The notes below the pieces were generated by a model, which made no database searches, was not told where the DNA came from, and worked only from the letters and a program-made list of their open reading frames with translations. Shown one piece after another: positions 196-50,005 of a DNA stretch of 64,000 bases. This DNA comes from Mycobacterium sp. Root265. Lineage in GTDB: Bacteria > Actinomycetota > Actinomycetes > Mycobacteriales > Mycobacteriaceae. A program made the translations under genes and the position numbers. Numbering within the stretch: position 1 is the first letter of the stretch; each line of letters begins with the position of its first letter. Where the stretch lies: contig NZ_LMJA01000015.1 of the NCBI RefSeq assembly GCF_001428895.1, positions 1-64,000 of the forward strand, in the 5' to 3' direction.

Positions 196-227
196 GAGGG
201 TCAGACTACCCAGTTCGAGGGCAAAAC

Positions 228-241
228 TGAAACGTGTTGCA
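228..241. promoter_or_regulatory. KstR-type operator (TetR family, sterol catabolism)
   Basis: The 14-mer TGAAACGTGTTGCA fits the KstR consensus TnnAACnnGTTnnA at every fixed position. It lies 33 bp upstream of the DUF35 start on the minus strand, a sensible place for a repressor site. KstR governs cholesterol-degradation genes in mycobacteria, and as I recall the Rv1628c-Rv1627c pair belongs to that regulon. Binding is inferred. Confidence 0.65.
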
Positions 242-260
242 GTTTGACCGCGCGCCGCGG

Positions 261-2071: not shown

Positions 2072-2141
2072 TCCTCCACCGTGTTCGAACTGCATGAATA
2101 AGTCCAATATCATCTGTGTCTGAGATCTATAATCAACCCTT

Positions 2142-30384: not shown

Positions 30385-30482
30385 TCGTCCCACGCTATCC
30401 GGCTCGACTCCGGCTTGTCGGTGGGTGCACCTAGCATTGGCCGTGAGTTCTTGTGCCTTGGGCAGGACTGAAAAGGGGAAGT

Positions 30483-33390
<2,908 letters not shown>

Positions 33391-33401
<11 letters not shown>

Positions 33402-34188
33402 TCCCTACCGCTGAGGACAGCAGCCGGGCGGCTGCCAGGCCGCTCGGCTGGGCCCCGTCGGACAGCACGCTGAAATAGACGTGGTCGGCGCCGGCCGCCA
33501 GGTGCTGCCGGGCGCGGGCCGCGATGCCGGAAGCACTGCCCCAGGCGATCACCCTGTCCACCAGGGCATCGCTGAGCGTCTCGATATCACGTTCGGTAAA
33601 GCCTTGTCGGCGTGCCGAATCGGCGTAACTACGCATACCCATCAGAAACCGCAGGGGTGTGCGGGCCGTCTCCCTGGCCGTGTCGGGATCGGTGTCGAGG
33701 ACCGCGTACAGGCCGACGATCAGCTGCGCGCCGTCGCCGAGCCGCTGCCGCGTCCGCATGGTGTAGTCCGGAGTGATCATCCCCGGCATGGCGCCGGCGA
33801 AACGATCCCGGGCGACGGCCAGTGTGCGCGGGCCGAATGCCGCCAGCAGGCGCCGGTTTCGGGGTATCGGATCCAGGTCGTCCAGGTACTCGGACAGTGC
33901 TGCCAGCGGTTTGTGTTGCGATGAGCCCAGTCCGATCATCAGCCGGCCCGGTGCCGTCACCTCGGCGCGGCGGTACAGCGCGATCACCGCGTCGGTGCCG
34001 TACACGTCAGGCGGGATGATGGCGGGCGCGATCACCGCACGCGCGGTGGCGGCCAGCAGATCGGTCAGGACATCGAGACGGTCGATCTGGCCGCCGTTGA
34101 CCCACAGCGTACGAAACCCGAGATCCTCGATCTCGCGGGCATGGGCAGATGTGGGGTCGACGGTGAATCCATAGCGGCCGAGTTCCAT
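33391..34188 (-). CDS. LLM-class F420-dependent oxidoreductase (TIGR03620-like)
   Basis: A 265-residue luciferase-like enzyme. [12 protein letters not shown] at the N-terminus, then [26 protein letters not shown] and [11 protein letters not shown] near the end fit the F420-dependent TIGR03620-type subfamily common in mycobacteria. The start ATG 34188 is preceded by a weak purine stretch; an ORF continues 7 codons upstream without support. Convergent with uvrA, overlapping by 11 bp. Substrate unknown. Confidence 0.82.
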
Positions 34189-34263
34189 GCCGCCACGGTA
34201 GAACCGCAACGTTGGTTGAGGTCAAGAGCTGTGGCTTGGCACTAAACTGGCACCAGTCGGATC

Positions 34264-34908
34264 ATGTGGTACGAGACGGGGATCGTGGTGGCGGTAGCGG
34301 GCGACTGGACGGTATTTCCGCGAAAAGGATTGGGAAAGCTGGAATTCGGCATGTCTACGGCGCAGGTGGACGCGCTGTCCGGTACATACGGAGCCGTAAC
34401 AGGTCGCGGCGACGATCGGATTCCGGATGACCTGCTCCGCGACACGCTGGAGAAATTCGGCGACGCGATGAGCGAGGAAGAGAAACAGGCCCTGATCGCC
34501 GTCTATGCGGAAAGCGGCCCATCCGGTGACAGCGTGACCGAAACGCGTGGCAATCCGGGCCTCGTCCTCGGTTACCGGGCCGACCGCCTCGTCGAGATCA
34601 TGCCGGCAACGAATCAGCGCCCGCTGGTTCTCGAGGGCAAGGACATCCTGTCGCTCAGCGGACTGGAGTCGCTGGCACTGTTGGAGCGGCTCAATCGCGG
34701 CCCCGGCCGCTACGCCGATACCGAGGCGGCGTTCGACAACCTCGCCATCTCGGCGGATGGCTTCTGTGTCACCGACCGGGCAGCAGCCCAGGTGCGCGCG
34801 CTGGACGACTCCGACGAGCGGTTCGTGGGGCGCACCGTGACCTTGCGGCTGGAACCCTATCTACCCGAGGGCGAGATGGACCGTTTCATCTATCGGGCTC
34901 TGGGTTAG
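34264..34908 (+). CDS. unrecognised 214-residue protein
   Basis: A protein I do not recognise. It reads as a soluble, acidic alpha/beta protein (for example GKLEFGMSTAQVDAL, EEEKQALIAVYAE, RADRLVEIMPATN), with no signal peptide or membrane segment. The upstream region is less GC-rich and holds a TAAACT hexamer at 34243-34248. The start could be ATG 34264 or GTG 34285. The GMSxxxVxALLG-like phrase near residue 29 is seen in some immunity or regulatory proteins, but this is not enough for a call. Confidence 0.6.
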   Translation: MWYETGIVVAVAGDWTVFPRKGLGKLEFGMSTAQVDALSGTYGAVTGRGDDRIPDDLLRDTLEKFGDAMSEEEKQALIAVYAESGPSGDSVTETRGNPGLVLGYRADRLVEIMPATNQRPLVLEGKDILSLSGLESLALLERLNRGPGRYADTEAAFDNLAISADGFCVTDRAAAQVRALDDSDERFVGRTVTLRLEPYLPEGEMDRFIYRALG

Positions 34909-34914
34909 TCCCGA

Positions 34915-36072
34915 TCAGCTCTTCGACAGCGGCGAGGGGAACCGTGGTTTGATCACCGCTCCGCCGAGCCATTCGGTCAGCTCATCGGCCTTGCGCTGCA
35001 ACGCCTTCTGGGTCCTGCGGCTGACATCGGTGACGATCTGCAGTTCGACCCGTCCATCGCCGGATTGCCGCCAGCCACCGACCACCCGGCCGTCCGCCCA
35101 CGCCGTGGGCCCGGCGTTGCCGCGGTTGTCGAACACCTGATCGCGCAGCCCCTCCAGGTACCAGTCGCGGTCGACCCAGCCCATGGTCGTGACATCCAGA
35201 CCGGGCAGCAGCGCGCACCACGGCTCGGCAGCCGGTTCCGGGTCCAGGTCATCGGGCAGCGCCACCGCCGGCGTGCCGTGCAGGTCCACCTCGACCGCAC
35301 CGATGTCGGCCAGCGCACGCCGGGTCCAGGTCAGGGTATGGCCGAACCACCACTTGATGTCGGCGACGGTGGCGGGGCCGAAAGCGCGCAGCCAGATGCG
35401 CACCAACTCCGCGCTGGCGGCGTCGGGCTCGGCGGCATCCGATGTCTCGAGCCAGGACGCGGCAGATACCCACAGCGGACGCGATGATGTCCAGCCGCCC
35501 TGGTTCGGTCCGCGGACCACCTGGCCCCGGACTGCGAGCACGGTGATGACCCGCGGCGACAGGGGAGTGTCTCCGCCCCAAGGCTTCCCGGGTGCCGGAT
35601 CATACGTCCCCGCCAGTTCCGGCAACGCCGTGCGCAGCTGGGTCGCGCCGGTCGGACCGTTGGCCTCCAGATACGCCAGCACCGCCGCGCATGCGGTGCG
35701 CAACCACTCGGCGCCGTCGGTGGCCACCCCGGCCTTCTCGACGTCGGCGATCAACTTGCGGCTCTCGCTGTCGGCCACCCGGTCACTGGATGCTGCCTGC
35801 ACCGCCGAAATACCGTCGGCCCGCACCACCCACAGCGTGCGGCGCATCGCGAGATGTTTGACCAGCGTCCGCTCCCGGTAGAGCGTGGCATCCAGATCGG
35901 CACGGTCGAAACCCGGAATCCTGGCCCACAGCGACAGATACGGGGTGGCCGGATCGGTGGCGTGCAGACCCACCAATGCCGATGTCACCGTCGCCGCATC
36001 GGTTCCTTGATCGCCGAGAAAGTGCCGCCGGGCCAACCGGGCGCGCCTCTCGGCAAGGGTGAACGAACGCAC
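34915..36072 (-). CDS. winged-helix DNA-binding protein, AlkZ/YcaQ-like (HTH_42)
   Basis: A 385-residue HTH_42 protein, the fold of AlkZ and YcaQ DNA glycosylases that excise crosslinks or alkylated bases. ARRHFLGDQG, VGLHATDPATPYLSLWAR, HLAMRRTLWVV and the C-terminal WADGRVVGGW are family blocks. In AlkZ the catalytic motif in this place is QxQ; here it reads HAT, so catalysis may differ or be absent. The GTG at 36072 overlaps the upstream gene's stop by one base. Mycobacteria carry several such paralogues. Confidence 0.8.
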   Translation of the reverse strand: MRSFTLAERRARLARRHFLGDQGTDAATVTSALVGLHATDPATPYLSLWARIPGFDRADLDATLYRERTLVKHLAMRRTLWVVRADGISAVQAASSDRVADSESRKLIADVEKAGVATDGAEWLRTACAAVLAYLEANGPTGATQLRTALPELAGTYDPAPGKPWGGDTPLSPRVITVLAVRGQVVRGPNQGGWTSSRPLWVSAASWLETSDAAEPDAASAELVRIWLRAFGPATVADIKWWFGHTLTWTRRALADIGAVEVDLHGTPAVALPDDLDPEPAAEPWCALLPGLDVTTMGWVDRDWYLEGLRDQVFDNRGNAGPTAWADGRVVGGWRQSGDGRVELQIVTDVSRRTQKALQRKADELTEWLGGAVIKPRFPSPLSKS

Positions 36073-36386
36073 TAGTCGCGGTTCATCGATTCGCGGATCT
36101 GCTTGAGCCGCTCGGCGGCTGCCTGCTGCCGCGCCTCGTACTGCTCGGCCACCGACCGGCCCTCGGGGGTGTCCTCGGCCAGTTCCACCGCACCGATGGC
36201 GGTGCCGAAGCGGTTCTCGATCTTCTCGCGCACCGAATCGAAGGTCGGCACGCCGGCAGCGGTGTAGCCGGTATCGACCGGGACGGCAGTGAGTTCCACC
36301 GGGGCCTGCGTGGCGGGCACGTCCTCCGCCGGAACGACCTCGGCATCGATCGGGTCACCCGCAGAAGGCTGCTGGTCATCGGGCAT
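36072..36386 (-). CDS. small acidic conserved hypothetical protein
   Basis: A 104-residue hydrophilic, acidic protein (MPDDQQPSAGDPIDAEVV at the start). The second half is helical and charged (FDSVREKIENRFGTAIGAVE, then VAEQYEARQQAAAERLKQI), likely a coiled coil. No family recognised with confidence. It is coupled to the winged-helix gene by a one-base overlap and is divergent from the lipoprotein gene. Confidence 0.7.
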   Translation of the reverse strand: MPDDQQPSAGDPIDAEVVPAEDVPATQAPVELTAVPVDTGYTAAGVPTFDSVREKIENRFGTAIGAVELAEDTPEGRSVAEQYEARQQAAAERLKQIRESMNRD

Positions 36387-36495
36387 GACGCCACCGTACC
36401 TCCTGGAGAAGTTTGGGATCGGTAGCGATTCGGCGCGGATGTACTTGCCCCACGACGGCGCCACAGGGGCGGCGGCGAATGAAAAGGACATAGAC

Positions 36496-36996
36496 ATGAC
36501 GAAGAATCGCGTTCTGGCCGCCGGGATCGGGATGCTCGCCACCGCGGCGGTACTGGTGGGTTGCTCGGATGACAAGGCCGGCGAACCCGCCGCGTCGAGT
36601 TCCGGCAACGGCAGCAGCGCCGCGCAGGTCGCCAGCGGCGGCAGCACCGAGGTCAAGGTGGAGGGCCAGGACCTGGCCGGCCTGGACCTCAAGTCGGTGA
36701 CCTGCGTCAAGGCCGGCGGCAAGATCAACGTGGCCAGCGCCGCCATCGGTGGCCAGCAGGGCCTCGGCGTCGTGATGACCGACGATGCCGCTCCCAAGGT
36801 CGAGTCGATCGGACTGGTGGTCGACGGTAACGCCCTCGCCGTCGCCTCGATGGCCGGCGCGAGCAGCGGAACGGCCGACGTCAAGGTCGACGGCAGTACC
36901 TACACCATCACCGGTGAGGCTGTCGGTGCCGACATGAAGAACCCGATGGCGGGGATGATCACCAAGAAGTTCGAGATCAAGGTCGACTGCAGCTGA
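36496..36996 (+). CDS. 19-kDa lipoprotein, LpqH family
   Basis: A 166-residue lipoprotein. The signal peptide ends in the lipobox LVGC with Cys23 to be lipidated, followed by a Ser/Gly-rich linker and the LpqH-type beta-sandwich (VKVEGQDLAGLDLKSVTCVKAGG ... TITGEAVGADMKNP), ending VDCS, so one disulfide is likely. LpqH proteins are cell-envelope lipoproteins that trigger TLR2. ATG 36496 follows AAAAGGA. A strong hairpin terminator follows. Confidence 0.88.
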   Translation: MTKNRVLAAGIGMLATAAVLVGCSDDKAGEPAASSSGNGSSAAQVASGGSTEVKVEGQDLAGLDLKSVTCVKAGGKINVASAAIGGQQGLGVVMTDDAAPKVESIGLVVDGNALAVASMAGASSGTADVKVDGSTYTITGEAVGADMKNPMAGMITKKFEIKVDCS

Positions 36997-37038
36997 CCGG
37001 CGCCTCCCGGGGCGGGCCAGGCGACGGGAACACCGTCG

Positions 37039-37070
37039 GGCGGCGGGCGCGGAGCCGCGTCCGCCGCCTT
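37039..37070 (+). terminator. hairpin terminator after the LpqH-type gene
   Basis: A 14-bp stem (GGCGGCGGGCGCGG at 37039-37052 with its complement at 37055-37068, one G-U pair) around a two-base turn. Very stable, with only TT after it. It separates the lipoprotein gene from the CHAT cluster. Confidence 0.75.
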
Positions 37071-37091
37071 CGCCCGTCCTATGATGACGCG

Positions 37092-38789
37092 GTGTCGATC
37101 ACCGGTGACCTGGAGCGGGCCCGCCGGCTTGCCTGGGCCGCCGACGAGCCGGGTGCCAAGGAGCTGCTGCTGTCACTGTTGCCGGCCATCGAGCAAGCCG
37201 ACCGTGACGACCTGGCCTTGGAGGCTTTCGCCCAGCTCGGCGAGATCTATCTGGTGCGTACCGCCTACGACGGTGTGGGCGAGTGTATTCGGCGCATCCG
37301 GGACTGCATCGCGGCCTACGCCGCCCTACCGGAGCGCAACCCCGACATTCGGCACATGATGCAGCGTTACACCCGCCGTGCCGACTTCCTGCAAGCCGGC
37401 CTGCACGCCGCCCGCGGCGAACACGACGAGGCCGCGACATCGGTGTCGGCGCTGATCGCCGCCGACGGGCCGCCGGACCTGGCCGAAGAGCACCGGTATC
37501 TGGTCGGTTTCGCCCGGCTGCTCTGCGCGATCGCGCTCTCCGACGACGATCTGCACCACCTGGCGGTCCCGTTGTGGGCACAGGTGCTCGACGTGGTCGA
37601 CGTCTCCGCAGCCGACGGCAGCCACGACGACCGGCTGCTGGTGCTCGCGGGGATCGGCTACGGCGGATTCTGCGTGCAGACCGGCAGGCTCGACGAAGCA
37701 GAACCCTGGCTGCGGCGCGCCGGGGCGCGAGCAGAGAAGCACGGCTGGAAGCTGGACACCGCCCGAACGCAATTGGAACGTGCGATCGCCTGCTGGTCCG
37801 TCGGCGACCACAACGGCGTGGATCGACTCATCGATCAGGCCTACCCGGTGATCGCCAAATATGCCCGCGCCCATGATGTGTCCCGCTGCTGGTTCTACCG
37901 CGGCTTCACCAAGCTGGCCTCGGCGGCACTGGAAGAGGCCGATCAGTGCTGGGAACACGCCGAACGTCACTGGCGCGAACTCGGCAAACCGCTCCACCTT
38001 CATCGCATTCTGTTGCAGCGCAGCTGGATCCCGATCTTCTTCGGCCGCTTCGGCGAAGCGGTGGAGCTGATCGCCCAGGCCCGCACCCTGCTCGACGAAT
38101 GGCCGCGCAGCACCTGGCTGCAGTACGCCCGACTCGACGATCAACTGGGCACGGTGTGGCGGGCCGACGCGCTGGGAGATCTGGGATTCGACGGCGCCGG
38201 TGATCCCGAGGACACCTGGGACGAGGTCGAGGCCAAACATGAAGCCTCCCTGGGCACCACCAATGCCGAGACCGGTAGCCCCGGATTCGTCCGTGCGATG
38301 GCCAAGCTGGAGCAGGCCGCAGAACTCAAGGTGCCCGCGGCGCTCGCGGTGGATTCGGTGCGCTACACGATCGTCGACGCCAACGCCCGCGCACAGTGGG
38401 CGACCAGGGTGTCGGCGCCCATGCTGGCCGGTGCCTTCGCGGTGTCCTGGGAATGGGAGAACACCGCACTCACCGCCGAGCTGATCGAATACCACAGCGC
38501 CCGAGGTAGTTTCAGTACCGATACCGCAGACGAGGCCGAAGCGCCGATCTGGGCCGGAGCCCAGGCCGTGCTCGTCGACGCGGAGTTCGAACTGCCCGAC
38601 CTCGAGCTCGCCGCAGTCGCCGCCGGGTCCGTCAGTGGAGGGCCGTCGTTGACCAGACTGGGTCCGCTGCCGCCGCTGCAGATGGATCCCGGCGCCGAAC
38701 CGATCCTCGGGCACTACCGCGCCCTGGCCAAGCAGCGCTACGGCCGCGCCATCACCACCGACGACCCGGCCTGGCCGACATGGTCGTGA
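37092..38789 (+). CDS. TPR-like helical-repeat protein of the CHAT cluster
   Basis: A 565-residue soluble protein. Most of it reads as stacked helical pairs of TPR type (LALEAFAQLGEIYLVRTAYD; GYGGFCVQTGRLDEAEPWLR; FYRGFTKLASAALEEADQCW). The C-terminal 120 residues differ and may be a separate domain. Its end overlaps the CHAT protease gene by 10 bp. In known systems helical-repeat proteins hold or sense a partner for CHAT proteases, for example the TPR-CHAT protein of type III-E CRISPR. Here the role as scaffold or sensor is inferred. GTG 37092 is taken as start. Confidence 0.75.
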   Translation: MSITGDLERARRLAWAADEPGAKELLLSLLPAIEQADRDDLALEAFAQLGEIYLVRTAYDGVGECIRRIRDCIAAYAALPERNPDIRHMMQRYTRRADFLQAGLHAARGEHDEAATSVSALIAADGPPDLAEEHRYLVGFARLLCAIALSDDDLHHLAVPLWAQVLDVVDVSAADGSHDDRLLVLAGIGYGGFCVQTGRLDEAEPWLRRAGARAEKHGWKLDTARTQLERAIACWSVGDHNGVDRLIDQAYPVIAKYARAHDVSRCWFYRGFTKLASAALEEADQCWEHAERHWRELGKPLHLHRILLQRSWIPIFFGRFGEAVELIAQARTLLDEWPRSTWLQYARLDDQLGTVWRADALGDLGFDGAGDPEDTWDEVEAKHEASLGTTNAETGSPGFVRAMAKLEQAAELKVPAALAVDSVRYTIVDANARAQWATRVSAPMLAGAFAVSWEWENTALTAELIEYHSARGSFSTDTADEAEAPIWAGAQAVLVDAEFELPDLELAAVAAGSVSGGPSLTRLGPLPPLQMDPGAEPILGHYRALAKQRYGRAITTDDPAWPTWS

Positions 38790-40114
38790 CCGACCGGCAG
38801 ACCCTGATTCTGCGATTCGCCGATGTCGGTATCGCGACCTACGCCAGCCTGCGTGTCGTCGGGCAGCCCGGGCGCACCGTCACCTGGGTGGTCGAGGAGA
38901 CCATTCTGCTTGCGGCGCTGGAGGAGATCGCTGCGGCACTACCGGATCCGCGCGATGCCGAGACCGCGGTGGACGCGTTGCAGCGCGCACTCTCCGATGG
39001 CGCATTCACCACCGCGGACACCGAACTGACCCTGGCCTACCGCCTGGGCGTCCTGCTGATCTCGGCCGCGGGCTGGGATCTGCTCCAGGAATGTGTACAC
39101 GACCCGCGCGCGGTGTTGTTCGTCGCGCCAAGCGCTCGCCTGGGCCGGGTGCCGTGGGGACTGCTCGCGCTGCCCGCGGTGCGACCCGAGGTGATCGCGA
39201 TGCTGGCGGCCCGACAGGAGGCCATCACCCCGGACGGTCCGCAGCCGGCCGTGATCCCATGGCCGGACGGGGAGATCGGTGCGCTCACCGAAGGCTTCCG
39301 GTTGCTGGAGTTCGTGGATGTGCTGATGGCGGTGCCGGCCAACATCGCGCACTCGCGGCGCGTCAACACGGCGCGCCCGGAAGCGGATCCGCTGCTGATC
39401 CTCGACCCTCGGGTTCCCGGTCAGCGCCCGGATTCGGCGCTGGGGTCGGTGCTGGGCAGACCGGCGCCGGATACCGTGCTTGCGCGGCACTACGCGGACC
39501 TGATGCACCGGCGAACAGTGTTGCCGCGGGTCGACACCCCGATCGAGCTGTTCCGGCGCACCGACACCGACCGGCACTGGCTGGCCGAGGTGCTGGCCGA
39601 AATGCCCGGGCGCCTCGTCTATGTCGGGCACGCCAGCACCGGCGACGGCGCGGAACGGGCGGCTCTGCACCTCGCGTGCCGTGCCTCGGCCGAGGGATAC
39701 AGCAACCCGGTCGGCGATCACCGCCCGCTCACCGCGGCCGACCTGATGTCGGCCCAGCTGCCCATTCCGACTCGTGTTGCGTTGCTGGCCTGTGCATCCG
39801 GTGGCGACTACCGATTCGACGAGGCCACCGGGATCGTCGCGGCAATGGTGCTGGGCGGAGCGGAATTGGTGACCGCGACGCTGTGGTCGCTGCCCACCAG
39901 CGCCGGGTATCGGCGGTTCGTGTCCGGCGCACCGGCCGACCCGATGGGTACGGTCATCGCCGCGGTCGACGCCGCCCATCAGGCGGATACCGATTTCGAG
40001 GCGGCGTGCGCGGTCAACCGTTGGCAACGCGCACAACTGCGGAGCTGGCGGGACGGCGACGAATCCGCGGCACCGGTGTACTGGGCGGCGCTGGTGAGTT
40101 TCGCGGTTCTCTAG
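38780..40114 (+). CDS. CHAT-domain (caspase-like) protease
   Basis: A 444-residue protein. The C-terminal half is a CHAT domain with the catalytic dyad His284 (YVGHASTG) and Cys338 (LLACASGG), followed by GGAELVTATLWSLPT and the end segment YWAALVSFAVL, all typical. The N-terminal 150 residues are helical and of unknown fold. CHAT proteases are clan CD peptidases used in conflict or regulated-death systems, including gasdermin activation and Craspase. No CRISPR, gasdermin or STAND ATPase lies nearby. ATG 38780 overlaps the helical-repeat gene by 10 bp. Confidence 0.85.
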   Translation: MVVTDRQTLILRFADVGIATYASLRVVGQPGRTVTWVVEETILLAALEEIAAALPDPRDAETAVDALQRALSDGAFTTADTELTLAYRLGVLLISAAGWDLLQECVHDPRAVLFVAPSARLGRVPWGLLALPAVRPEVIAMLAARQEAITPDGPQPAVIPWPDGEIGALTEGFRLLEFVDVLMAVPANIAHSRRVNTARPEADPLLILDPRVPGQRPDSALGSVLGRPAPDTVLARHYADLMHRRTVLPRVDTPIELFRRTDTDRHWLAEVLAEMPGRLVYVGHASTGDGAERAALHLACRASAEGYSNPVGDHRPLTAADLMSAQLPIPTRVALLACASGGDYRFDEATGIVAAMVLGGAELVTATLWSLPTSAGYRRFVSGAPADPMGTVIAAVDAAHQADTDFEAACAVNRWQRAQLRSWRDGDESAAPVYWAALVSFAVL

Positions 40115-40118
40115 TCGA

Positions 40119-40763
40119 TCAGGCCGGCGGTACGGCCACCGCGACGGCGGATTCGTCCCCGCGCCGGTAGTACGCGTCGACGACGCTGCCCGGGCAGACC
40201 CGATCCAGTGAGGTGGCCGGGATGAGTGTCGTCTCGTGGGCCGGGAACTGCCCGCCTTCGGGCCTGCGGACCATCAGGTCGAGCACCACCTCGCGGTAAT
40301 CCTCGCGTTCGTTGCCGGTGGACCGGGCGGCCGTCACCACGCCACTGGACCTGGTGCCGTGCCGGATGAGCTCCAGCTGCGCGTCGGTGACCAGGCCCTT
40401 GTCCACCAGCATCCGGTCGAACGCGGCCCGGATGGCGACCATGTCGTCGGCGAGGGTCAGCTGTTCGCGTGCATCGGGGTCGAAGGCCACCAGCAGCACC
40501 GCGCCCGGCCGGATCTCGGCGACCACCGGGTCGCCCGGGGCACCGCGCAGCCGGCCGGTGAACTTCTGGCCCGACACGCTCTCCACCTCGACGGTGATCC
40601 GGTCGGAGACCGCGCTGACGGTGCCGATAGCGACCGCCGGTGTGCCCGCGCACCGCGGGGCCGACCGGCCGCGGGGCAGCACCGTGCCGAGGGTGGTGCC
40701 GACCGTGACGATCACGACGGCGACGGCGACGAGGACCAGGAGGATCAGCAGTGAGTCAGGCAT
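40119..40763 (-). CDS. single-pass membrane protein of unknown function
   Basis: A 214-residue protein with one N-terminal membrane helix (LLILLVLVAVAVVIVTVG) and a mostly beta soluble part (AIGTVSAVSDRITVEVESVSG ... VVAEIRPGAVLLVAF) that could be two small OB- or SH3-like barrels. No catalytic motif recognised. It lies on the opposite strand between the CHAT gene (4 bp from its stop) and the next cluster gene (about 90 bp), which it faces divergently. ATG 40763 preferred over GTG 40772. Confidence 0.65.
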   Translation of the reverse strand: MPDSLLILLVLVAVAVVIVTVGTTLGTVLPRGRSAPRCAGTPAVAIGTVSAVSDRITVEVESVSGQKFTGRLRGAPGDPVVAEIRPGAVLLVAFDPDAREQLTLADDMVAIRAAFDRMLVDKGLVTDAQLELIRHGTRSSGVVTAARSTGNEREDYREVVLDLMVRRPEGGQFPAHETTLIPATSLDRVCPGSVVDAYYRRGDESAVAVAVPPA

Positions 40764-40853
40764 GGAGAACACGGTCGCCCCCGTCGGCGGCTACCGAACC
40801 CAACTTTTCGCCGGGCGCAGCGACGGGAAAGATCTCGTGCCTATCCTGAGCGG

Positions 40854-42182
40854 GTGAGTACCGTCCCGGAGGTCGCCGCGCAGGTGGCACGCGCGTTGCC
40901 TGCGCAGCCTCGGCGCGCCGTGATCGACCGCGCCTGGCGGGCGCTGGGCCCGGGCGTCCAGGTGCTCAGCAGTGATGACGGCGGACCGCTGAGCCGCACC
41001 GTCAAGCGCATCCTGGACCCGCTGGTGTTGCGGTTGCGGTCCAACCCGCAGTATTCGACACCGGTGGTGTCCGGCGAGGTGGCCGCCGAGATGTTCGAAC
41101 TGATCGTGGCGCACCGCGACCAGCTGTGTGCCACCGCGTCCTGGTTCGCGGTGCTCAAGCTGGCGCGCCGCAAGTTGCGGCTCACCACCGGCAACGCCCA
41201 GGAACTCTACTTCCCGGTGTGCTTCGAGCTTGCTGTCACCAAAGGTGAACCGGTACAGGATGATTCGGATACCGCAGAGACAATCCTGCGCGGGATCCAC
41301 GGGGACCGGGACCGCACCGCCATCGAGGTGCTCAACCGCCACGTCGCCGACGACAAGGTGGTCGGCGCGCTGGCACGTCAGTTGCAGGCCAGTTGGTCCG
41401 ATGTGCGGCCGACCGCGGCCATCACCGACCCGTTCCTGGCAGGCCTGAGCACCGTGCTGGGTGATGCTGCCGGGCACAACGAGTCGGTGGCCCGCCAGCG
41501 GGTGTGGACCGCGCTGGTGGCTGATGCGACGCCCTACAACCTGGGTGCCCGGGCCCGCGGCCCGGCGCCGGACCTGCCGTGGTCGTTCGTCGACATCGGC
41601 CTCAGCACGGTGCTGCCGCAACCGCCGCCGCCCGTGCACGGCGGTGCCGACACCGATCGCCCGTTGAATCGCAGCGTCGTCGATCGGGTGCGCGCCACAC
41701 TGCGCCGCGCCCTGGACCGCGACGAGCTGCCCGATGTTCCGCTGCTGTGCGCCGAGGAGGTGGACCGGGCCTGCGCGCCATGGGGTCTGCTCGCCGAGGA
41801 CATCCAGGCCGCGATGGTGGCCGGGGTGGAGATCGCCGTCGAACTGGCACCACTGAACGAGGCCGCGACACCGCGTTACCGGTTGGCCGCCCAGGTCCAG
41901 GCCCGGCTGCGCAAGGAGGCCTATGTGCTGCACGCGCGGCGCTACCTCGCCGACGGGGAGGCGCTGCACCCGCGCCAGCAGCAGGTGACCAAGGAGCTCG
42001 CCGCGTTCGCCCGGCCCTATCTGAGCAGGCTGTGGGCGCGTCTGCACGGCCGCGACGTCTGGCAGGAGTCCTGCGCGGATGTCGACGAGATGCGGGCGCT
42101 GCTGGAAGGGGTGGCCCGGTCGGTGAGCCTGGATCACCGGCAGCGGATCAAGGCGATGCTCGAACTGGAGGCGGCCCGATGA
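40854..42182 (+). CDS. unrecognised helical protein of the CHAT cluster
   Basis: A 442-residue soluble, largely alpha-helical protein. Distinct stretches include FAVLKLARRKLRLTTGNAQE and KEAYVLHARRYLADGEALHP. A proline-rich break (VLPQPPPPVHGG) near residue 260 separates two halves. I recognise no family. The GTG start gives MSTVPEVAAQVARAL. Its end overlaps the next gene by ATGA, so the two are coupled. Proximity to the helical-repeat/CHAT pair suggests the four genes act together, but a membrane-protein gene on the other strand lies between. Confidence 0.65.
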   Translation: MSTVPEVAAQVARALPAQPRRAVIDRAWRALGPGVQVLSSDDGGPLSRTVKRILDPLVLRLRSNPQYSTPVVSGEVAAEMFELIVAHRDQLCATASWFAVLKLARRKLRLTTGNAQELYFPVCFELAVTKGEPVQDDSDTAETILRGIHGDRDRTAIEVLNRHVADDKVVGALARQLQASWSDVRPTAAITDPFLAGLSTVLGDAAGHNESVARQRVWTALVADATPYNLGARARGPAPDLPWSFVDIGLSTVLPQPPPPVHGGADTDRPLNRSVVDRVRATLRRALDRDELPDVPLLCAEEVDRACAPWGLLAEDIQAAMVAGVEIAVELAPLNEAATPRYRLAAQVQARLRKEAYVLHARRYLADGEALHPRQQQVTKELAAFARPYLSRLWARLHGRDVWQESCADVDEMRALLEGVARSVSLDHRQRIKAMLELEAAR

Positions 42183-43252
42183 AACTGGTTGCCGAATCCG
42201 GATTGTGGACCACCGGCGCGCAGGTGGCCGCGCCGCCCGCGGTGGCGGTCCTCGAGGTCGCCGGCGCGGTCTTGGCGTGGACGGTCGACGATCCGGCCGC
42301 GACGGCACAGCTCACCTTCACCGATGTGGCTGCCGCGGACTGGTTGTGGCGGGTGGCCGGTGAGCAGGGGCATGTGGCGGTGGTCGAGGCGCTGCGCGGC
42401 CGGACCGCCGATCCGCAGTCCAGCATCGACATCGCCGATCTCGAACTGTCCCCCCAGGTGCTGGCGCCGCTGCGCAGGCTGGCGCTCGGCCACTGGCTGC
42501 GCCGGTGGTGGCCGGCCAGTGTCCGTGACAGCATCGCCGATCTCGACATCGCGGTGCTGGACGCCGAATTGGCGCTGTTGACTGCCGCAGCGCAGGAGTT
42601 CTTCGGTGAGGACACCCTGGACTCCGATATCGAGGCGCTGCTGTCCCCACACCGCGCAGCGCTGTCCGCCCATCTGCGTGATGGAGATCCGCGGGTGGCG
42701 GCGCTGATCGAGCCCTGTCTGGAGTGGGCCGATTGGGCGGAGATGGCCGAACCCGAGGCGTTGTCGTCCGACCGGCGGCGAGATGACTATGCGCTGGCTG
42801 CCGGCGGGCCGACGGCATCGCAGGCCGACACCATCGGTGCCGGCACCGCGTCGATCAGTTGGAGCGCCGTGCCGCCGGGGGTTTTCGACGCCGCCGAGGA
42901 CACCGTCGACTGGTCGGTGCGCGGTGACGGTGCCGGGGGAGCCGTGGCCGAGGTGCGTGCCCTGCTCAGCGGCTCCGCCGCCGGGGTGCCGGTGCAGCTG
43001 CGCAGCCGCGACGTCACCGCCACCGGTGCGCTCGATGACCGCGGCACCGCGACGCTCACCCTGCCGATCTCGGAATCGGCGGCGTGGAACCATGATTGGA
43101 CATCCACCACGGTCACCGTCGGGCGGGTGGCATCGGCCGGGGAGGACCGGGCGACCCGGGACCGGCTGCGGGCCTTCGTGCGGTCGCGGTTGGCGGTACC
43201 TGCGGCAGACGCGTTCCTGGCGGAGATCCTTGCCGCCGAATCCGATTACTGA
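42179..43252 (+). CDS. unrecognised two-domain protein of the CHAT cluster
   Basis: A 357-residue soluble protein. The first 200 residues mix strands and helices; residues about 225-320 are beta-rich (ISWSAVPPGVFDAAEDTVDW, then GVPVQLRSRDVTATG and DRGTATLTLPI), like an Ig-type sandwich, and the last 35 are a helical pair. No enzyme motif found. ATG overlaps the preceding gene (ATGA). The 3' end overlaps the convergent esterase gene by 7 bp. Coupled expression with the 442-residue protein makes a stable complex plausible. Confidence 0.65.
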   Translation: MKLVAESGLWTTGAQVAAPPAVAVLEVAGAVLAWTVDDPAATAQLTFTDVAAADWLWRVAGEQGHVAVVEALRGRTADPQSSIDIADLELSPQVLAPLRRLALGHWLRRWWPASVRDSIADLDIAVLDAELALLTAAAQEFFGEDTLDSDIEALLSPHRAALSAHLRDGDPRVAALIEPCLEWADWAEMAEPEALSSDRRRDDYALAAGGPTASQADTIGAGTASISWSAVPPGVFDAAEDTVDWSVRGDGAGGAVAEVRALLSGSAAGVPVQLRSRDVTATGALDDRGTATLTLPISESAAWNHDWTSTTVTVGRVASAGEDRATRDRLRAFVRSRLAVPAADAFLAEILAAESDY

Positions 43253-44592
43253 CTCGGTCGCCGGTCGGCCACCTGCACCGCCGACGGCGCCTTGGCAGGC
43301 TGCTGCAACGCGGCCCTCGGCACGTCCGGCGTGCCGATCTGGCCGGCCAGCCACGGGAGCGCCTCGGCGAAAGCGCTTGCCGCGAATGGCCAGTCGTGCT
43401 GGCCGGGTCGGCTGACCACCGCGCAGTCGATGCCGTGGGAGGCGCCCAGCGCGCACAGCGACTGGGCGGCCGCAGCGGTCTGCGGCGGCGGTGACACACC
43501 CGCCCCGTTCACCGAGAACCAGCCCGACACCCCGGTGTACGGGCCGTGCCGGGTGATGACGGTGGTCGGATCGAAAGCGGCGTAGGCGGCGGCGTCACCG
43601 CCGAACAGGCGCTCGATGGTCTGCGCCTTCGTCCCCGAGTTCGGGCTCAGGTCACCGGCGATGTCCTCGAACGCCGAGAACCGGTCGGGGTGCATCACGG
43701 TCAGGTCGACCGCGCAGGTGCCGCCCATCGACCATCCGACGACACCCCAGTTCGTCGGATCCGGGCTGACGCCGAACTTCGAGACCATCGCCGGCACGAC
43801 ATCGTTGACGAGATGATCGGCGACCTTGCCGCGGCGGCCGTTCACGCACTCGGTGTCGTTGTTGAACGTGCCGCCCACATCGGCGAACACCAGCACCGGC
43901 GCGTTGCCGCCGTGGGTTGCGGCGAAGGCGTCGGCGGTCTGCACGGCGTTGCCCGCGCGCGCCCAGTCCGCCGGAGTGTTCATCTCGCCGCCGATCATCA
44001 TCAGGGTCGGCAGCCGGGGCGGCGGATCGGAGGCGAACCAGGCCGGCGGCAGATAGACCAACTCGCCACGGTGCTTGAAACCCGAACCGGCGTCCCCGGT
44101 GTCCACCGGCACCAGAGAACCGTTGCGCGGCACCGCGTGCCGGACCTGGAATGCGGCGACTGTCGCCATATCGGTCTGATCGGGCAGCGGTCCCGCGGTC
44201 AGCTGCACCCATGCGGTCTGCATGGTGGGGAAATAGCCGGTCCACAGATTGACGGCCAGCGCCGCGCACAGGGCGCACAGCGGGACGGCCGCGACGGCCG
44301 CGGTGCGTCGCCACCAGCGCGCCCCGCGCCAACCGGAAAACAAAGCCGCGGCGGTGAATCCGGTCAGCCCGATCCAGATCCAGAGCGTGTGCGGGGCGGG
44401 TTCGCCGGCCAGCCCCTGGCTCGTCACGTACCAGTGTGCGGCCGCAGCCACCGCGGTGCCGAAGGCGGCGGCGTCTACCAGGCGGCGCCGCACGCGCAGC
44501 GCGGCCAACAGAACCAGACCGGTGATCACCTGAACGGTCACCGGCACCCAACCGTGGGTCAAGGAATCGTGGTGCTGCAAGAGCCCGGACAT
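43246..44592 (-). CDS. membrane-anchored esterase of the mycolyltransferase-like fold
   Basis: A 448-residue protein. Four membrane helices fill residues about 14-120 (for example VTVQVITGLVLLAALRV, WIWIGLTGFTAAALFSGW). The rest is an esterase-D/Ag85-type alpha/beta hydrolase with nucleophile GWSMGGTC and a likely catalytic His in RPGQHDWPF, probably facing the periplasm. It sits beside lysX as Rv1639c does in M. tuberculosis. Ag85-like folds act on mycolates or other envelope lipids; the substrate here is unknown. ATG 44592 or GTG 44601 may be the start. Confidence 0.8.
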   Translation of the reverse strand: MSGLLQHHDSLTHGWVPVTVQVITGLVLLAALRVRRRLVDAAAFGTAVAAAAHWYVTSQGLAGEPAPHTLWIWIGLTGFTAAALFSGWRGARWWRRTAAVAAVPLCALCAALAVNLWTGYFPTMQTAWVQLTAGPLPDQTDMATVAAFQVRHAVPRNGSLVPVDTGDAGSGFKHRGELVYLPPAWFASDPPPRLPTLMMIGGEMNTPADWARAGNAVQTADAFAATHGGNAPVLVFADVGGTFNNDTECVNGRRGKVADHLVNDVVPAMVSKFGVSPDPTNWGVVGWSMGGTCAVDLTVMHPDRFSAFEDIAGDLSPNSGTKAQTIERLFGGDAAAYAAFDPTTVITRHGPYTGVSGWFSVNGAGVSPPPQTAAAAQSLCALGASHGIDCAVVSRPGQHDWPFAASAFAEALPWLAGQIGTPDVPRAALQQPAKAPSAVQVADRRPSQ

Positions 44593-44646
44593 CAGCGTCA
44601 CGAGATCATCGTGACTCTGCTTCCTGGAAAGCAGCTGTGACCGGGG

Positions 44647-47600
44647 TCAGCGAGGTTTGGCCAACGGGAACGGCAACGTCTCACGGATGCTGCGCCCGGT
44701 GATCAGCATGACCACCCGGTCCACGCCGACGCCGAGACCACCCGTGGGGGGCATGGCGTACTCGAGGGCCTGCAGGAAATCCTCGTCGAGTTCCATCGCC
44801 TCCGGGTCACCGCCGGCGGCCAGCAGCGACTGCTCTTGAAGACGCTTGCGCTGCTCCACCGGGTCGGTGAGCTCGCTGTAGGCCGTGCCCAGTTCGACAC
44901 CCCAGGCGACCAGGTCCCAGCGCTCGGCGACACCGTCGATGCTGCGGTGTGGGCGGGTCAGCGGGGAGACCGAGGTGGGGAAGTCCTTGTAGAACGTCGG
45001 GCGCTCCGTCTGCCCCTCGACCAGTCGTTCGTAGAGTTCGAGCACCACCGCGCCGGTGTCCCAGTGCATCAGATAGGGCACCCCGGCACCGTCGCAGAGG
45101 CTGCGCAACCGCTCCAGGCCGGTCTCCGGGCCGATCTGTTCGCCGAGCGCCTCGGACACCGCGCCGTGCACCGTCTTCACCGGCCAGTCCCCGGAGATGT
45201 CGACCGCGATCAATCCGCCGTCGGGGCCGGGGCGCATCACCACCTGGGCTCCGTTGGCGGCCTCGGCGGCGTTCTGGATGAGCTCGCGGCAGCCGTGCAT
45301 CCACACGTTGTAATCGGCGTGCGCCTGATACGCCTCCAGCAGTGTGAATTCCGGGTTGTGGCTGAAATCCACCCCCTCGTTGCGGAACGCGCGGCCCAGC
45401 TCGAAGACCCGCTCCACGCCACCGACGCAAAGCCGTTTCAGATACAGCTCCGGGGCGATGCGCAGGTACAGGTCGAGGTCGTAGGCGTTGATATGGGTGG
45501 TGAACGGCCGTGCGTTGGCGCCGCCGTGGATCTGCTGCAGGATCGGTGTCTCGACTTCGAGGAACCCCTTGCCCACCAACGTTTCCCGAATGGCATGCAG
45601 GATCCGGCTGCGGGCGGTGATGAGGTCGCGGGCCTCGGTGTTGATCGCGAGGTCGACGTAGCGGGTCCGGACCCGGGCCTCCGGGTCGGTCAGGCCCTTC
45701 CACTTGTCGGGCAGCGGACGCAGGCACTTACCGATCAACCGCCACCGGGTGACCAGCAGGGAGGGGGTGCCGTTGCGGCTGAGCCCCATGGTGCCGGTCA
45801 CCTCGATCAGGTCGCCGAGGTCGATCGAGGCGGTGAAGTCGGCGTTGGTGCCCTGGGTGAGGCGCGAATTGTCCAGCAGCAGTTGCACGTCGCCGGACCA
45901 ATCGCGCAGCGCGGCGAACAGCACCCCGCCGTAGTCGCGGAGCCGCAGGATGCGGCCCGCGACGGTGACGGTGACATCGGCGGCGGTGGTGGCCAGCGCC
46001 TGCTCGACGGTGTGGCTGGGTGCCTCGCCGACCGGGTAGGCGTCGATGCCGTTGTCCTGCAACGTCTTCAGCTTCGCCATTCGGACTCGCACCTGCTCGG
46101 GCAGCCGGTTGCGCTCGTCGGCGGGCAGATCCTGTTGCAGCGCACTGGCATCCGGGGCGCTGCCGTCGCGGTGCAGCAACCCGCTGTCCACCAGGTTCTT
46201 CGGCGCGGCCACGTGTTCGCCGGTGTGTTCCTTGCGGCGGGAGAACGGCAGCACCAGGAATCCCTCGGCGATCACCGAAGCCACCCCGACCCGGGGCACC
46301 TCCCGGGCGTCCTCATAGCAGGCGAACCGCGGAACCCATTCCGGCTGGTACTTCATGTTGGAGCGGTACAGGGTCTCCAGCTGCCACCACCGGGAGAAGA
46401 ACACCAGCAGCGCACGCCACAACCGGGCGACCGGGCCGGCACCCAGTTGGGCGCCCTGCTCGAAGGCCGACCGGAACATCGCGAAGTTCAATGAGATCCG
46501 GGTGATACCGAGATCCTCTGCCTGCAGGCAGATCTCACTGACCATCAGCTCGATGGTGCCGTTGGGGGACTGGGGTGACCGGCGCATCACATCCAGTGAC
46601 ACCCCATTGGCGCCCCACGGGACCAGCGAGAGCATCGCCACCACGTCGCCGTCGTTGTCATTTTCCCCAGTGCCGCCGGCCGCCACGGCCTCCACCAGCA
46701 TGCAGTCACCGTCGGCGGGATCACCCAGGCGCCCCAGCGCCATCGAGAATCCACGCTCGGTCTCGGTGTCGCGCCAGGCGTCGGCACGGCCGACGACCGT
46801 GGCCATCTCGTCGGCGGTCAGTTCGCGGTGCCTGCGGACACGGACGGTCAGCCCTGCCCGGCGGGCGCGGGTGACGGCCTGCCGGACCGGCTTCATGTCC
46901 GGGCCGGACAGCTTGAAGCGGTCGGGGTGCAGGATGGCCTCATCGCCGAGTTCGATGGCGTTGAGGCCGGCATCGCGGAACGCCTGTGCGGCAGGGGCGC
47001 TGGCGCCCATCACGCCGGGGGCCCACCCGTAGGACTTGCACAGCTTGAGCCAGGCGTCGATCGCGGCCGGCCAGGAACGCGGGTCACCGACGGGGTCCCC
47101 GCTGGCCAGACACACCCCGACCTCGACGCGGTAGGTGACGGCGGCGCGGCCGTTGGGGGCGAACACCACCGATTTGTCGCGGCGGGTGGCGAAGTAGCCC
47201 AGCGAATCGTTCTTGCCGAACAACTCCAGCAGCCCGCGGATGGCGGATTCGTCCTGACCCGTCAGCGCGTTGGTGGCCCGTTGGGATCGGAACAGCACGA
47301 TGGCCGCGACCACCAGTGCCAGCGCGCCGAACAAACCGAGCAGTGCGTTGATCAGCACACCGGGATGCTGACCGTCGAAGACCTTGGAATCGACGCCGGC
47401 AAAGGCCACCACGCGGTTGACGGCGTACCCGAACCGGTAGTCGCGCTCCAAGGTCCCTGGGAACAGTTCCAGCAGGCCCCAACCGACCAGGATGCCGACG
47501 GCCATGGCGGCCAGCAGCGTGCCGATCGCCTTGAACAGGGCACCGCGGCGCACCCTGGCCCAGAATTCGTGCCGGGCGAGCACCAGGAAGCCGATCGCGG

Positions 47601-47985
47601 CCAGGTGGAACACCAGGCCGATGACCTCGCCGAACTCCTCGAGCACAGATTCGTCGCCGGCGATCAGGTCGGCGACATTCACCGCGACCGCGGCGACCAT
47701 GTAGAACACCAGGATCCACCAGGCGATGCTCTTGCGGGCGGCCAGCGCTGCGGCCAGCAGCGCGAGCACCACCGCCCAGGCGAAGCTGGTGTCGGGGAAG
47801 TTGAAGATGTAGTCGTTGACGAACTCCCGGGGCACCCGGATGGCAGACCGGACGATCGGGGAGATGCTCGCCACCAAGGACAGCGTGGCGATGACGCCGA
47901 CGATCCAGCCCGCGGCGGCCGGAACCCACGAGAATCCGGACGGTCGCCGGGTCGTCGACGGATGCGGGACTGTGGTGGCCGTCAT
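44647..47985 (-). CDS. lysX: bifunctional lysyl-tRNA synthetase/lysylphosphatidylglycerol synthase
   Basis: A 1112-residue two-part enzyme. Residues 1 to about 215 hold six or seven membrane helices, and about 240-600 form the MprF-type GNAT domain that transfers lysine to phosphatidylglycerol ([39 protein letters not shown]). From about 680 on comes an OB domain and a class II lysyl-tRNA synthetase with motif 2 [14 protein letters not shown] and motif 3 [15 protein letters not shown]. Lysyl-PG lowers surface charge and protects against cationic peptides; in M. tuberculosis LysX is needed for that. A little shorter than the M. tuberculosis protein. Confidence 0.95.
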
Positions 47986-48052
47986 AGGCCGCGAGAATAT
48001 GCCCTAAGCGGGCGAAATGGGTGTTTCTACCGACCCCGGGTGTCGGCCAGGA

Positions 48053-48412
48053 TCACCAGACCGGCCCGGTGTACTTCTCGCCGGGCCCCTGGCCGGGCTC
48101 CTCGGGCGCCGCGCTGGCCTCCCGGAACGCCAGCTGCAGACTCTTCAGACCGTCGCGCAGCGGTCCGGCATGCAGGCCCAGGTACTCCGCGGATGCGGTG
48201 ACCAGGCCGGCGAGTGCGGTGATGAGACGGCGGGCCTCGTCGAGATCGCGGTGCGGGCTGTCCTCGGGATCTTCGGAACCCAGGCCGATCTTCTCCGCCG
48301 CCGCGCTCATCAGCATCACGGCCGAGCGGGTGATCACCTCGACGGCGGGAATCTCGGCGAGCTCCCTAACCTGCGGGTCCGCGTCCGAAGGAGTTTTCTG
48401 ATCATCGGTCAT
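48053..48412 (-). CDS. DUF1844 family protein
   Basis: A 119-residue DUF1844 protein. The core [20 protein letters not shown] and [20 protein letters not shown] is typical of this small helical family, which is conserved beside infC in many actinobacteria. Its function is not known. The ATG at 48412 lies a few bases from the -10-like element of the divergent infC promoter, so the two promoters overlap. A lone gene, 67 bp upstream of lysX on the same strand. Confidence 0.85.
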
Positions 48413-48418
48413 GCCTGT

Positions 48419-48424
48419 TAGACT
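48419..48424 (+). promoter_or_regulatory. candidate -10 element (TAGACT) of the infC operon
   Basis: TAGACT fits the mycobacterial SigA -10 pattern TANNNT, with TTCTGA seventeen bases upstream as a weak -35. Transcription from here would give a leader of about 270 nt before infC. Visual assignment only. Confidence 0.45.
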
Positions 48425-48430
48425 TGCACG

Positions 48431-48698
48431 ATCGACCGTCCCGGCGAACGCCAGGGACAGTAAGTGGAGTCCCGCTCCCACCGCTGACCATACCGGTCCA
48501 GCGGTCCGATCACAGGCATCCGCGGATGTCCTGTTCTGCGCATGCGCAGGCGGCGAAAGCCGTGATCGGTCGGCATCGGGCCCTGCTATATGCAGGGCCT
48601 TTCTGCTCTTCGGAGCGGAATGCCGATGGTGTGGTCTCTCCCTGCTGGCCCGGCGCTCCATCACGGTCGTGGCACGAGCAGACAACGTAGGAGGCCCC
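48431..48698 (+). promoter_or_regulatory. structured 5' leader of infC-rpmI-rplT
   Basis: This stretch of about 270 nt has no long gene but several potential stems: CCGCTG/CAGCGG around 48481-48503, the perfect palindrome CTGCGCATGCGCAG at 48536-48549, and the attenuator-like hairpin at 48578-48605. In other bacteria infC-rpmI-rplT leaders carry L20-binding or attenuation structures. I saw no match to a specific known leader family, so the class is inferred from position and structure. Confidence 0.5.
48578..48605 (+). terminator. attenuator-type terminator in the infC leader
   Basis: GGCCCTGC (48579-48586) and GCAGGGCC (48592-48599) form an 8-bp GC-rich stem with the 5-nt loop TATAT, followed at once by TTTCT. 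The layout is that of an intrinsic terminator, placed about 100 nt before the infC start and inside its leader, so it probably works as an attenuator. Confidence 0.7.

Positions 48699-48709
<11 letters not shown>
48620..48709 (+). CDS. 29-codon upstream ORF overlapping the infC start
   Basis: ATG at 48620 with CGGAG four bases upstream opens a 29-codon frame ([16 protein letters not shown]...) that ends at TGA 48707-48709, eight bases inside infC. Ribosomes finishing it would sit on the infC ribosome-binding site. It could couple infC translation to leader translation. No homologue recognised; whether it is translated is unknown. Confidence 0.4.
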
Positions 48710-49331
<622 letters not shown>

Positions 49332-49354
49332 TCCACCACAAGAACTGAGGACAC

Positions 49355-49549
49355 ATGCCCAAGGCAAAGACCCACAGCGGCGCATCCAAGCGCTTCCGCG
49401 TCACCGGAAGCGGAAAGGTCGTCCGCCAGAAGGCCGGCAAGCGCCACCTTCTCGAGCACAAGGCGAGCAAGCACACCCGTCGCCTCGACGGCCGCGTCAC
49501 CGTTGCCGCCAACGACACCGCCCGCGTCAAGAAGATGCTGAACGGCTAA
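49355..49549 (+). CDS. rpmI: 50S ribosomal protein L35
   Basis: A 64-residue L35 ([20 protein letters not shown]), basic throughout, with the conserved [14 protein letters not shown] stretch. It follows infC by 23 bp and precedes rplT by 66 bp in the standard infC-rpmI-rplT order. ATG 49355 follows GAGGACAC. Confidence 0.97.
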
Positions 49550-49559
49550 TTCGGTTGAC

Positions 49560-49573
49560 CGGCTGAAAAGCCG
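49560..49573 (+). promoter_or_regulatory. small GAAA-loop hairpin between rpmI and rplT
   Basis: CGGCT-GAAA-AGCCG, a 5-bp stem with a GNRA tetraloop, lies in the 66-nt rpmI-rplT gap. L20 binds structured sites in its own mRNA in other bacteria; this could be part of such a site or just a processing or spacer element. Confidence 0.35.
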
Positions 49574-49615
49574 CTATTCCCTCCAGACTTTCCCCGCAAG
49601 AATAGGAACACTCCC

Positions 49616-50005
49616 ATGGCACGCGTGAAGCGCGCAGTCAACGCTCAGAAGAAGCGGCGCACAGTACTCAAGGCTTCCAAGGGCTACCGCGGCCAGCGGT
49701 CGCGCCTCTACCGCAAGGCCAAAGAGCAGCAGCTGCACTCCTTGACCTACGCCTACCGGGACCGCAAGGCCCGCAAGGGCGATTTCCGCAAGCTGTGGAT
49801 CTCCCGGATCAACGCTGCGGCCCGCGCCAACGGCGTCACCTACAACCGCCTGATCCAGGGTCTGAAGCTGGCCGGCGTCGAGGTGGACCGCAAGAACCTG
49901 TCGGAGATCGCGATCAGCGATCCCGCCGCGTTCACCGCTCTGGTCGAGGTTGCCAAGGCAGCACTGCCCGAGGATGTCAACGCGCCGTCGGGCGAAGCCG
50001 CCTGA
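49616..50005 (+). CDS. rplT: 50S ribosomal protein L20
   Basis: A 129-residue L20 ([49 protein letters not shown]), an early-binding assembly protein of the 50S subunit and, in other bacteria, the autoregulator of this operon. ATG 49616 has AATAGGAA upstream. Its stop TGA at 50003-50005 overlaps the apparent tsnR start. Confidence 0.97.

Follow-up and report, generated by a model that had tools for sequence, protein, structure and literature searches.

CHAT (caspase-like) cysteine proteases are known in defence, and bacterial gasdermin operons combine a stand-alone caspase-like protease with co-encoded partners. Csx29 of the type III-E clustered regularly interspaced short palindromic repeat (CRISPR) system is a CHAT protease that carries TPR repeats in its chain and likewise has co-encoded partners; in Craspase, binding of target RNA activates Csx29 for a single cut in Csx30, and the authors' model has this cut relieve the inhibition of a sigma factor (PMC10028731). 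A caspase-superfamily peptidase also stands in a conserved multi-gene unit in the VMAP, iSTAND and EACC1-caspase systems, and conflict System 4 pairs such a peptidase with a membrane protein (PMC7159879). Here we describe a unit of four genes, A, B, C and D, in a 64,000-nucleotide stretch of Mycobacterium sp. Root265 (contig NZ_LMJA01000015.1, positions 1 to 64,000; hereafter the window). By analogy, the unit is best read as a TPR-CHAT protease that is split in two, has two partners of its own and would work like Craspase, to which it shows no detectable sequence kinship.

The unit genes are bracketed by uvrA (30453-33401) and lysX (44647-47985) and form two pairs on the plus strand. Gene A (37092..38789) encodes a TPR-like helical-repeat protein of 565 residues and overlaps by 10 bases with gene B (38780..40114), which encodes its partner, a CHAT cysteine protease of 444 residues; gene C (40854..42182; 442 residues) and gene D (42179..43252; 357 residues) are coupled by an ATGA overlap. 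A first-pass annotation of this DNA had singled out these four genes and their couplings. The coordinates agree, and since the same set recurs in many genomes the grouping is not due to chance, but the unit starts further upstream than had been assumed, at a gene that was missed: lpq (36496..36996, plus strand), which encodes a lipoprotein of the LpqH family (19 kDa antigen, PF05481) and in mycobacteria adds a fifth conserved member to the unit. A reversed membrane-protein gene had also been placed between the two pairs. This gene, R (40119..40772, minus strand; 217 residues), is indeed present there, but it is accessory, lies outside the conserved core, varies in domain content and was not found in nine of the 124 close loci described below. 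We consider it very likely that A, B, C and D are one protease unit. In the open-access literature, which covers few subscription journals, no description of the unit was among the matches listed; nothing was found there on CHAT in Mycobacterium, the matches listed for metacaspases were unrelated papers, and the presumed locus tags MSMEG_3801 to 3806 gave nothing.

B is a member of the CHAT family. It matches the Pfam model PF12770 with 33 bits (cut-off 24, E 5.5e-8), and it is the sole CHAT match at E <= 0.001 in the 6.67 Mb of its own genome. The intact His284/Cys338 dyad pointed out in the first-pass annotation proved invariant in 42/42 close orthologues and in 29/29 proteins of a wider set with outgroups; L064 and L068, two loci outside the B alignment, keep the dyad as well, and Gly341 and Asp343 are conserved along with it. 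The family match and the invariant dyad suggest that B is a protease, and they are the ground on which the term 'proteolytic', applied earlier to the whole module, can be retained. In 13 of 15 outgroup B proteins the residues from the catalytic Cys onwards read C-E-S-G-x-D. Judged by eye and unaligned, this resembles Csx29, in which the catalytic His615 and Cys658 are reported and Cys658 is followed by Glu659, Ser660 and Asp661 (PMC10028731).

The TPR matches of A all fall below threshold, the best being TPR_12 (E 3e-5, 24.5 bits against a cut-off of 30.1). Profiles of A and B match a single reading frame in some relatives (L090, L202, L204 and L215, and with widened profiles also L211 and L212), and because of these one-chain forms we regard A as the scaffold of a TPR-CHAT protein that is split over two genes. 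The likeness to Csx29 extends to the CHAT domain, the dedicated partners and, putatively, the TPR repeats (PMC10028731); the differences are that the window encodes A and B in two genes and that C and D belong to unnamed families. No Cas7-11, Csx30 or Csx31 was named by PADLOC, whose coverage of these proteins is unchecked, in the unit or among ten window proteins. Sequence profiles of A and B retrieved no Craspase chain from the PDB (profile A3 at E <= 1, A4 at E <= 0.1, and A6 at E <= 10, where a kinesin at 0.58 was the sole match), and we therefore do not file the unit under Craspase.

That C and D are of no recognised family, as stated in the first-pass annotation, was borne out: neither has a Pfam match at E <= 1 or any match in NCBIfam or PADLOC, and 39 C and 38 D orthologues gave few weak Pfam matches (best E 0.016), each in a single member. 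The AlphaFold2 model of C is all-helical, with a mean predicted local distance difference test score (pLDDT) of 86.5 and a predicted template modelling score (pTM) of 0.66. D is modelled as a helical part, a low-confidence linker at about residues 194-210 and an immunoglobulin (Ig)-like beta-sandwich at about 216-318. C matched no PDB entry by sequence up to E 1, its best Foldseek hit had an E of 1.0, and no relative stood out in structure searches with either model. Signature stretches, from which single sequences deviate, are GxPLxRTVK, GNxQxxYF and RLWxRLHGR in C and WWPAS and ALAAG in D. The nearest named C sequences listed are those of Mycolicibacterium sp. P9-22 (93%) and M. frederiksbergense (91%), a list from which very close records may be missing; they make an environmental mycobacterium the probable source of the window. 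The C frame is interrupted in three genomes (G031, G045 and G218; in G045 that of D also), by decay or sequencing error; in G031 and G045 these frames sit on single-contig assemblies or main chromosomes.

To follow the inheritance of the unit, we scanned 100 genomes, including that of Root265 and 60 of the genus group, for B, C and D. C was found in 45 genomes, B strongly in 44 and weakly in one more (G073), and D in 46, namely the same 45 as C and one spurious case (G026); the sets agree except for genome G005. Sixteen of the 60 genus-group genomes are without C. A set of 124 close loci (L062-L105 and L107-L186) was then built from the 45 fetched from the sampled genomes, of which L106 from G073 was dropped because it held no unit gene, and the best 80, all named, of 262 matches in another search; one of the 124 (L090) comes from another family. 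The locus sets overlap in genomes (L105 equals L150), and the 124 loci are therefore not independent. Whether the four families travel together, the check proposed with the first-pass annotation, could be answered from the contigs that reach more than 4.5 kb upstream and more than 1.3 kb downstream of the C match: all 106 such loci have lpq and A to D. In the 18 loci on shorter contigs the absent genes fit the contig ends, as judged from distances, save for L105/L150. Strand and order are identical in 111/111 loci that hold all five genes. The alignments, window included, took in 39 of 45 C, 38 of 43 D, 41 of 44 A and 42 of 44 B sequences; the omissions are mostly broken or cut copies, but include intact ones (L068 throughout, L082 for C and D, L064 for B).

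By flanking markers, 59 of the 124 loci lie in the uvrA-lysX setting, 40 beside dnaX, 13 in a yaaA/amidase and six in a deoC/nitrilase setting; six are short or other. On a tree of 84 C sequences, a quick tree with long branches flagged, the settings follow clades and require eight changes against a mean of 37.3 after shuffling; the uvrA-lysX setting alone needs five. The dnaX setting is that of M. gordonae, M. asiaticum and others, which we take to be slow growers, and the deoC setting that of Mycobacteroides. Empty sites were searched for in 13 of the 16 C-less genomes. In ten unit-free genomes no unit gene was detected at E <= 1e-3 in the uvrA-lysX interval, which was bracketed on both sides in all of them; ten dnaX-side stretches were likewise without A to D, six of these bracketed on both sides. 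One such dnaX-side stretch (L242) has an LpqH-like match (38%) about 10 kb further on. With 16/60 genus-group genomes lacking C and with unit-free uvrA-lysX intervals, the description 'accessory in a conserved block' is apt. The clade-wise settings and the absence as a block suggest that the unit moved or was acquired a few times and was then mostly inherited.

The unit extends beyond the genus group. Of 394 genomes sampled across the class, 35 gave C, 40 gave B and 33 gave D, and in a phylum sample C was found in 11/396 genomes, all of its own family; since only four to five candidates were scored per genome in both samples, misses are likely. Fourteen of the 35 C genomes lie outside the genus group, two of them (G127 and G218) with weak fragments. 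At the twelve strong outgroup loci D adjoins C in all twelve and B shares their contig in 11, the contig of the twelfth coming to an end; A was detected by profile in nine and by widened profile in 11. The widened A and B profiles were trained on L216 and L217, so that those rows match by construction. The order in other actinobacterial families is mostly C-D-A-B, with no intervening gene. A very diverged set with A reversed (L222) was found with profiles not trained on it. B is weak, partial or a remnant in seven of the 40 genomes (G116, G183, G205, G272, G306, G315 and G329), of which G329 proved to hold a full diverged set; a partial B frame in G116 (L224) stands without other unit genes and is probably a remnant. 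Six plasmid records carry C: five are from Streptomyces (1.2-1.6 Mb) and one is from Nocardia (2.66 Mb, labelled a plasmid). No phage record does; the two plasmid records examined are both complete for A to D. The unit is old, and the claim that its genes are one module is strongly supported by the shared order in 111/111 loci, the several settings, the joint absence and the recurrence in other families, with the exceptions of L105, L223 and the Rhodococcus plasmids. All three Rhodococcus plasmids carry a parallel set of CHAT and TPR proteins with two proteins roughly of the size of C and D, and NYN-domain genes nearby. Despite the similar size, a profile comparison gave no relation of these genes to C and D; one of them shows weak similarity to an Ig-like model (E 0.0073) that does not reach the cut-off.

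Each pair appears to have its own promoter. A -10 box, TATGAT (37080..37085, plus strand), stands six bases 5' of the GTG of A, and a second, TATCCT (40842..40847, plus strand), six bases 5' of the GTG of C. The pattern TA...T, ending 4-9 bases before the start, is present in 41/42 A orthologues; the exception, L096, has merely 4 bases before its contig end. By the same fixed rule the box of C was found in 34/43 cases, and six of the nine misses (L064, L067, L073, L080, L085 and L093) have the hexamer with the start called elsewhere. As controls, the pattern precedes 13 of 2087 ATG/GTG on the plus strand of the window, 0/42 lpq and 0/36 R starts. In L074, L088 and L090, C is without a -10 box; the C of L074 is interrupted, and that of L090 directly follows a fused A-B gene. 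Leaderless transcripts with such start-proximal boxes are known from mycobacteria, and the transcripts of A and C are probably leaderless, as judged from these sequences; the conserved boxes thus point to two leaderless transcripts, A-B and C-D. A 13-pair hairpin between lpq and A (z -2.4) is possibly a terminator, and because lpq is without the box found at A and C and is followed by this hairpin, it may be a separate transcript.

Overall, we favour the reading that the unit is a caspase-like protease gated by a signal and served by two dedicated partners, and that in Mycobacteriales it is tied to the envelope; we think this rather probable. B would be the protease and A its TPR scaffold, and A, C and D would keep B inactive as long as no signal is bound. 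C may be a sensing or adaptor subunit, and D a gate or substrate whose flexible linker, which joins the helical part to the Ig-like domain, would be cut, with release of a fragment; these precise assignments for C and D are tentative, being drawn from analogy and from predicted models. The proteins would be made from the two leaderless transcripts. In Mycobacteriales the unit would be tied to the envelope through its LpqH-type lipoprotein, and usually through R too, and an envelope-derived trigger or output is plausible. The fullest version of this reading, a CRISPR-independent actinobacterial pathway in which a C-gated split TPR-CHAT protease cleaves D and frees an Ig-like or helical effector, with envelope wiring via lpq in mycobacteria, is a possibility that we hold with some doubt.

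Several observations weigh against the protease unit as read here. The co-inheritance of C and D shows regular partnership, not contact, and their roles come from analogy and a predicted model; A is without any TPR match above cut-off, and lpq was undetected at all outgroup loci examined other than L205, L210 and L214. In G005, an 84% complete genome, C-D stands on a 4.3 kb contig (L105) without B, which was not found anywhere in that genome; the 2.2 kb that this contig has upstream of C, in place of R and the end of B, contain a divergent gene with a protein kinase domain (155-2098, minus strand; E 6.4e-42). L105 may be C-D without adjacent A-B, or a misassembly. In G127 and G218 C is a fragment, and the locus of the latter (L213) holds no other unit gene. 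Conversely, G129 has a second A-B pair without C-D (L223) in addition to a full unit, and the three Rhodococcus plasmids (L216, L217 and L225) carry A-B with other genes and no C-D.

A possible, if less convincing, alternative is that the unit is a regulator of envelope stress or surface quality in mycolate bacteria, in which the lipoprotein would be sensor or client and the protease would regulate a transcription or cell-wall factor. The lpq product belongs to the same Pfam family as LpqH, the mycobacterial 19 kDa lipoprotein (PF05481: E 1.1e-29, 103.5 bits, cut-off 23, searched with 36511-36996; the in-frame ATG at 36496 was chosen by eye); its profile matches three LpqH-type PDB sequences, and the Cys at the end of the signal (lipobox) is nearly invariant in the alignment, in which the first half of row L081 is out of frame. 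The gene is present and in order in the 106/106 close loci with enough contig, including that of G088 of another family, and stands divergent beside C in the outgroup loci L205, L210 and L214. On a tree, the 24 sampled unit copies (L205 and L210 included, L214 not) form a lineage that branches apart from the paralogue rows, although this comparison is with two distinct paralogue sequences only. R, a membrane protein by sequence, also fits an envelope regulator. However, the core occurs without detected lpq in other orders, and lpq, with 0/42 -10 boxes and the hairpin behind it, may have its own transcript. As it was undetected at most outgroup loci, lpq is not intrinsic to the unit; its company in Mycobacteriales and the separate branching of the sampled copies favour an envelope connection there, which the signal-gated protease reading accommodates. 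The genome of Root265 has two more LpqH-family genes in tandem (G000:C30:110608-111573).

The remaining gene of the locus, R, encodes one N-terminal membrane helix as judged by eye and has no Pfam match at E <= 1. By tblastn it was found in 115/124 close loci, always (115/115) in the opposite orientation to C, and it ranges from 106 to 227 residues among orthologues with a called start. It apparently consists of two tandem small domains; in the alignment two dnaX-setting copies keep the first only and several others the second only. Weak, sub-cut-off DUF3592 matches near the unit in L202 (12244-13107) and L205 (7683-8471) are possibly a distant counterpart of R. Between R and C lies a conserved 18-mer, AAGTTGGGTTCGGTAGCC (40789..40806, minus strand), of which at least 17/18 bases are kept in 35/43 loci; in several loci it stands about 25 bases 5' of an R ATG, by eye. 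In the genome of Root265 it has one exact match and three more at two mismatches, so that no regulon is seen and a role as a regulon site was set aside; the 18-mer may be an operator or an unusual promoter.

That the unit serves antiphage or anti-plasmid abortive infection, with C or D as sensor and B unleashed on a cell protein or on D so that growth stops, is in our view unlikely. In favour, a CHAT protease acts in type III-E CRISPR (PMC10028731), genomes have or lack the unit as a block, large plasmids carry relatives of C, and diverged A-B pairs are found on Rhodococcus plasmids with NYN-domain genes near. Nevertheless, PADLOC gave no match for the five locus proteins (E <= 1), lpq, 14 CHAT homologues (0.01) or 10 outgroup neighbours (0.001). 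Among ten window proteins, UvrA and a luciferase-like oxidoreductase alone match PADLOC models, and we discount these matches because both are common enzyme families. A direct-repeat scan of 30000-50000 (at least 22 bases, up to 150 apart) revealed no CRISPR-like array, the one two-copy match being inside uvrA. Moreover, the settings follow clades and C is on no phage record. The context, with its missing PADLOC match and CRISPR-like array and its clade-wise inheritance, therefore does not support the 'defence' function raised in the first-pass annotation, which we retain as this unlikely possibility. The accompanying statement that no CRISPR, gasdermin or STAND gene is present holds in so far as there is no array at 30-50 kb and no STAND domain by Pfam; for gasdermin, C, D and R have no PADLOC or Pfam match, which does not exclude a gasdermin-like substrate gene. 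The unit likewise differs from gasdermin operons in that neither database names A, R, C or D so, and from the VMAP, iSTAND and EACC1-caspase systems (PMC7159879) in that no MoxR, vWA or STAND domain turned up when the unit and eight neighbours in the window were scanned with Pfam, and in that R is variable.

It is improbable that B is no longer used as a protease and that A to D form a structural or signalling scaffold around a fossil CHAT fold: conflict systems reportedly include caspase-like domains that have lost catalytic activity (PMC7159879), but B keeps His and Cys in 42/42 and 29/29 sequences, and Gly341 and Asp343 too. Least probable is that A-B and C-D are separate pairs, neighbours without shared function, as the reversed gene between them in the window, their own promoters, C-D without B in L105 and A-B without C-D in L223 might suggest, because other families have C-D-A-B without an intervening gene, the same set stands in several settings, and the genes are jointly absent.

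The signal-gated protease reading unites two so far anonymous protein families with an unstudied protease of mycobacteria in one testable system, which has a defined composition, signature residues, natural one-chain forms and genomes that naturally lack it. Should the protease reading be true, there would be a caspase-like pathway outside CRISPR in mycobacteria and streptomycetes, with a candidate substrate encoded next to the protease. At the same time, one lineage of the LpqH lipoprotein family gains a context.

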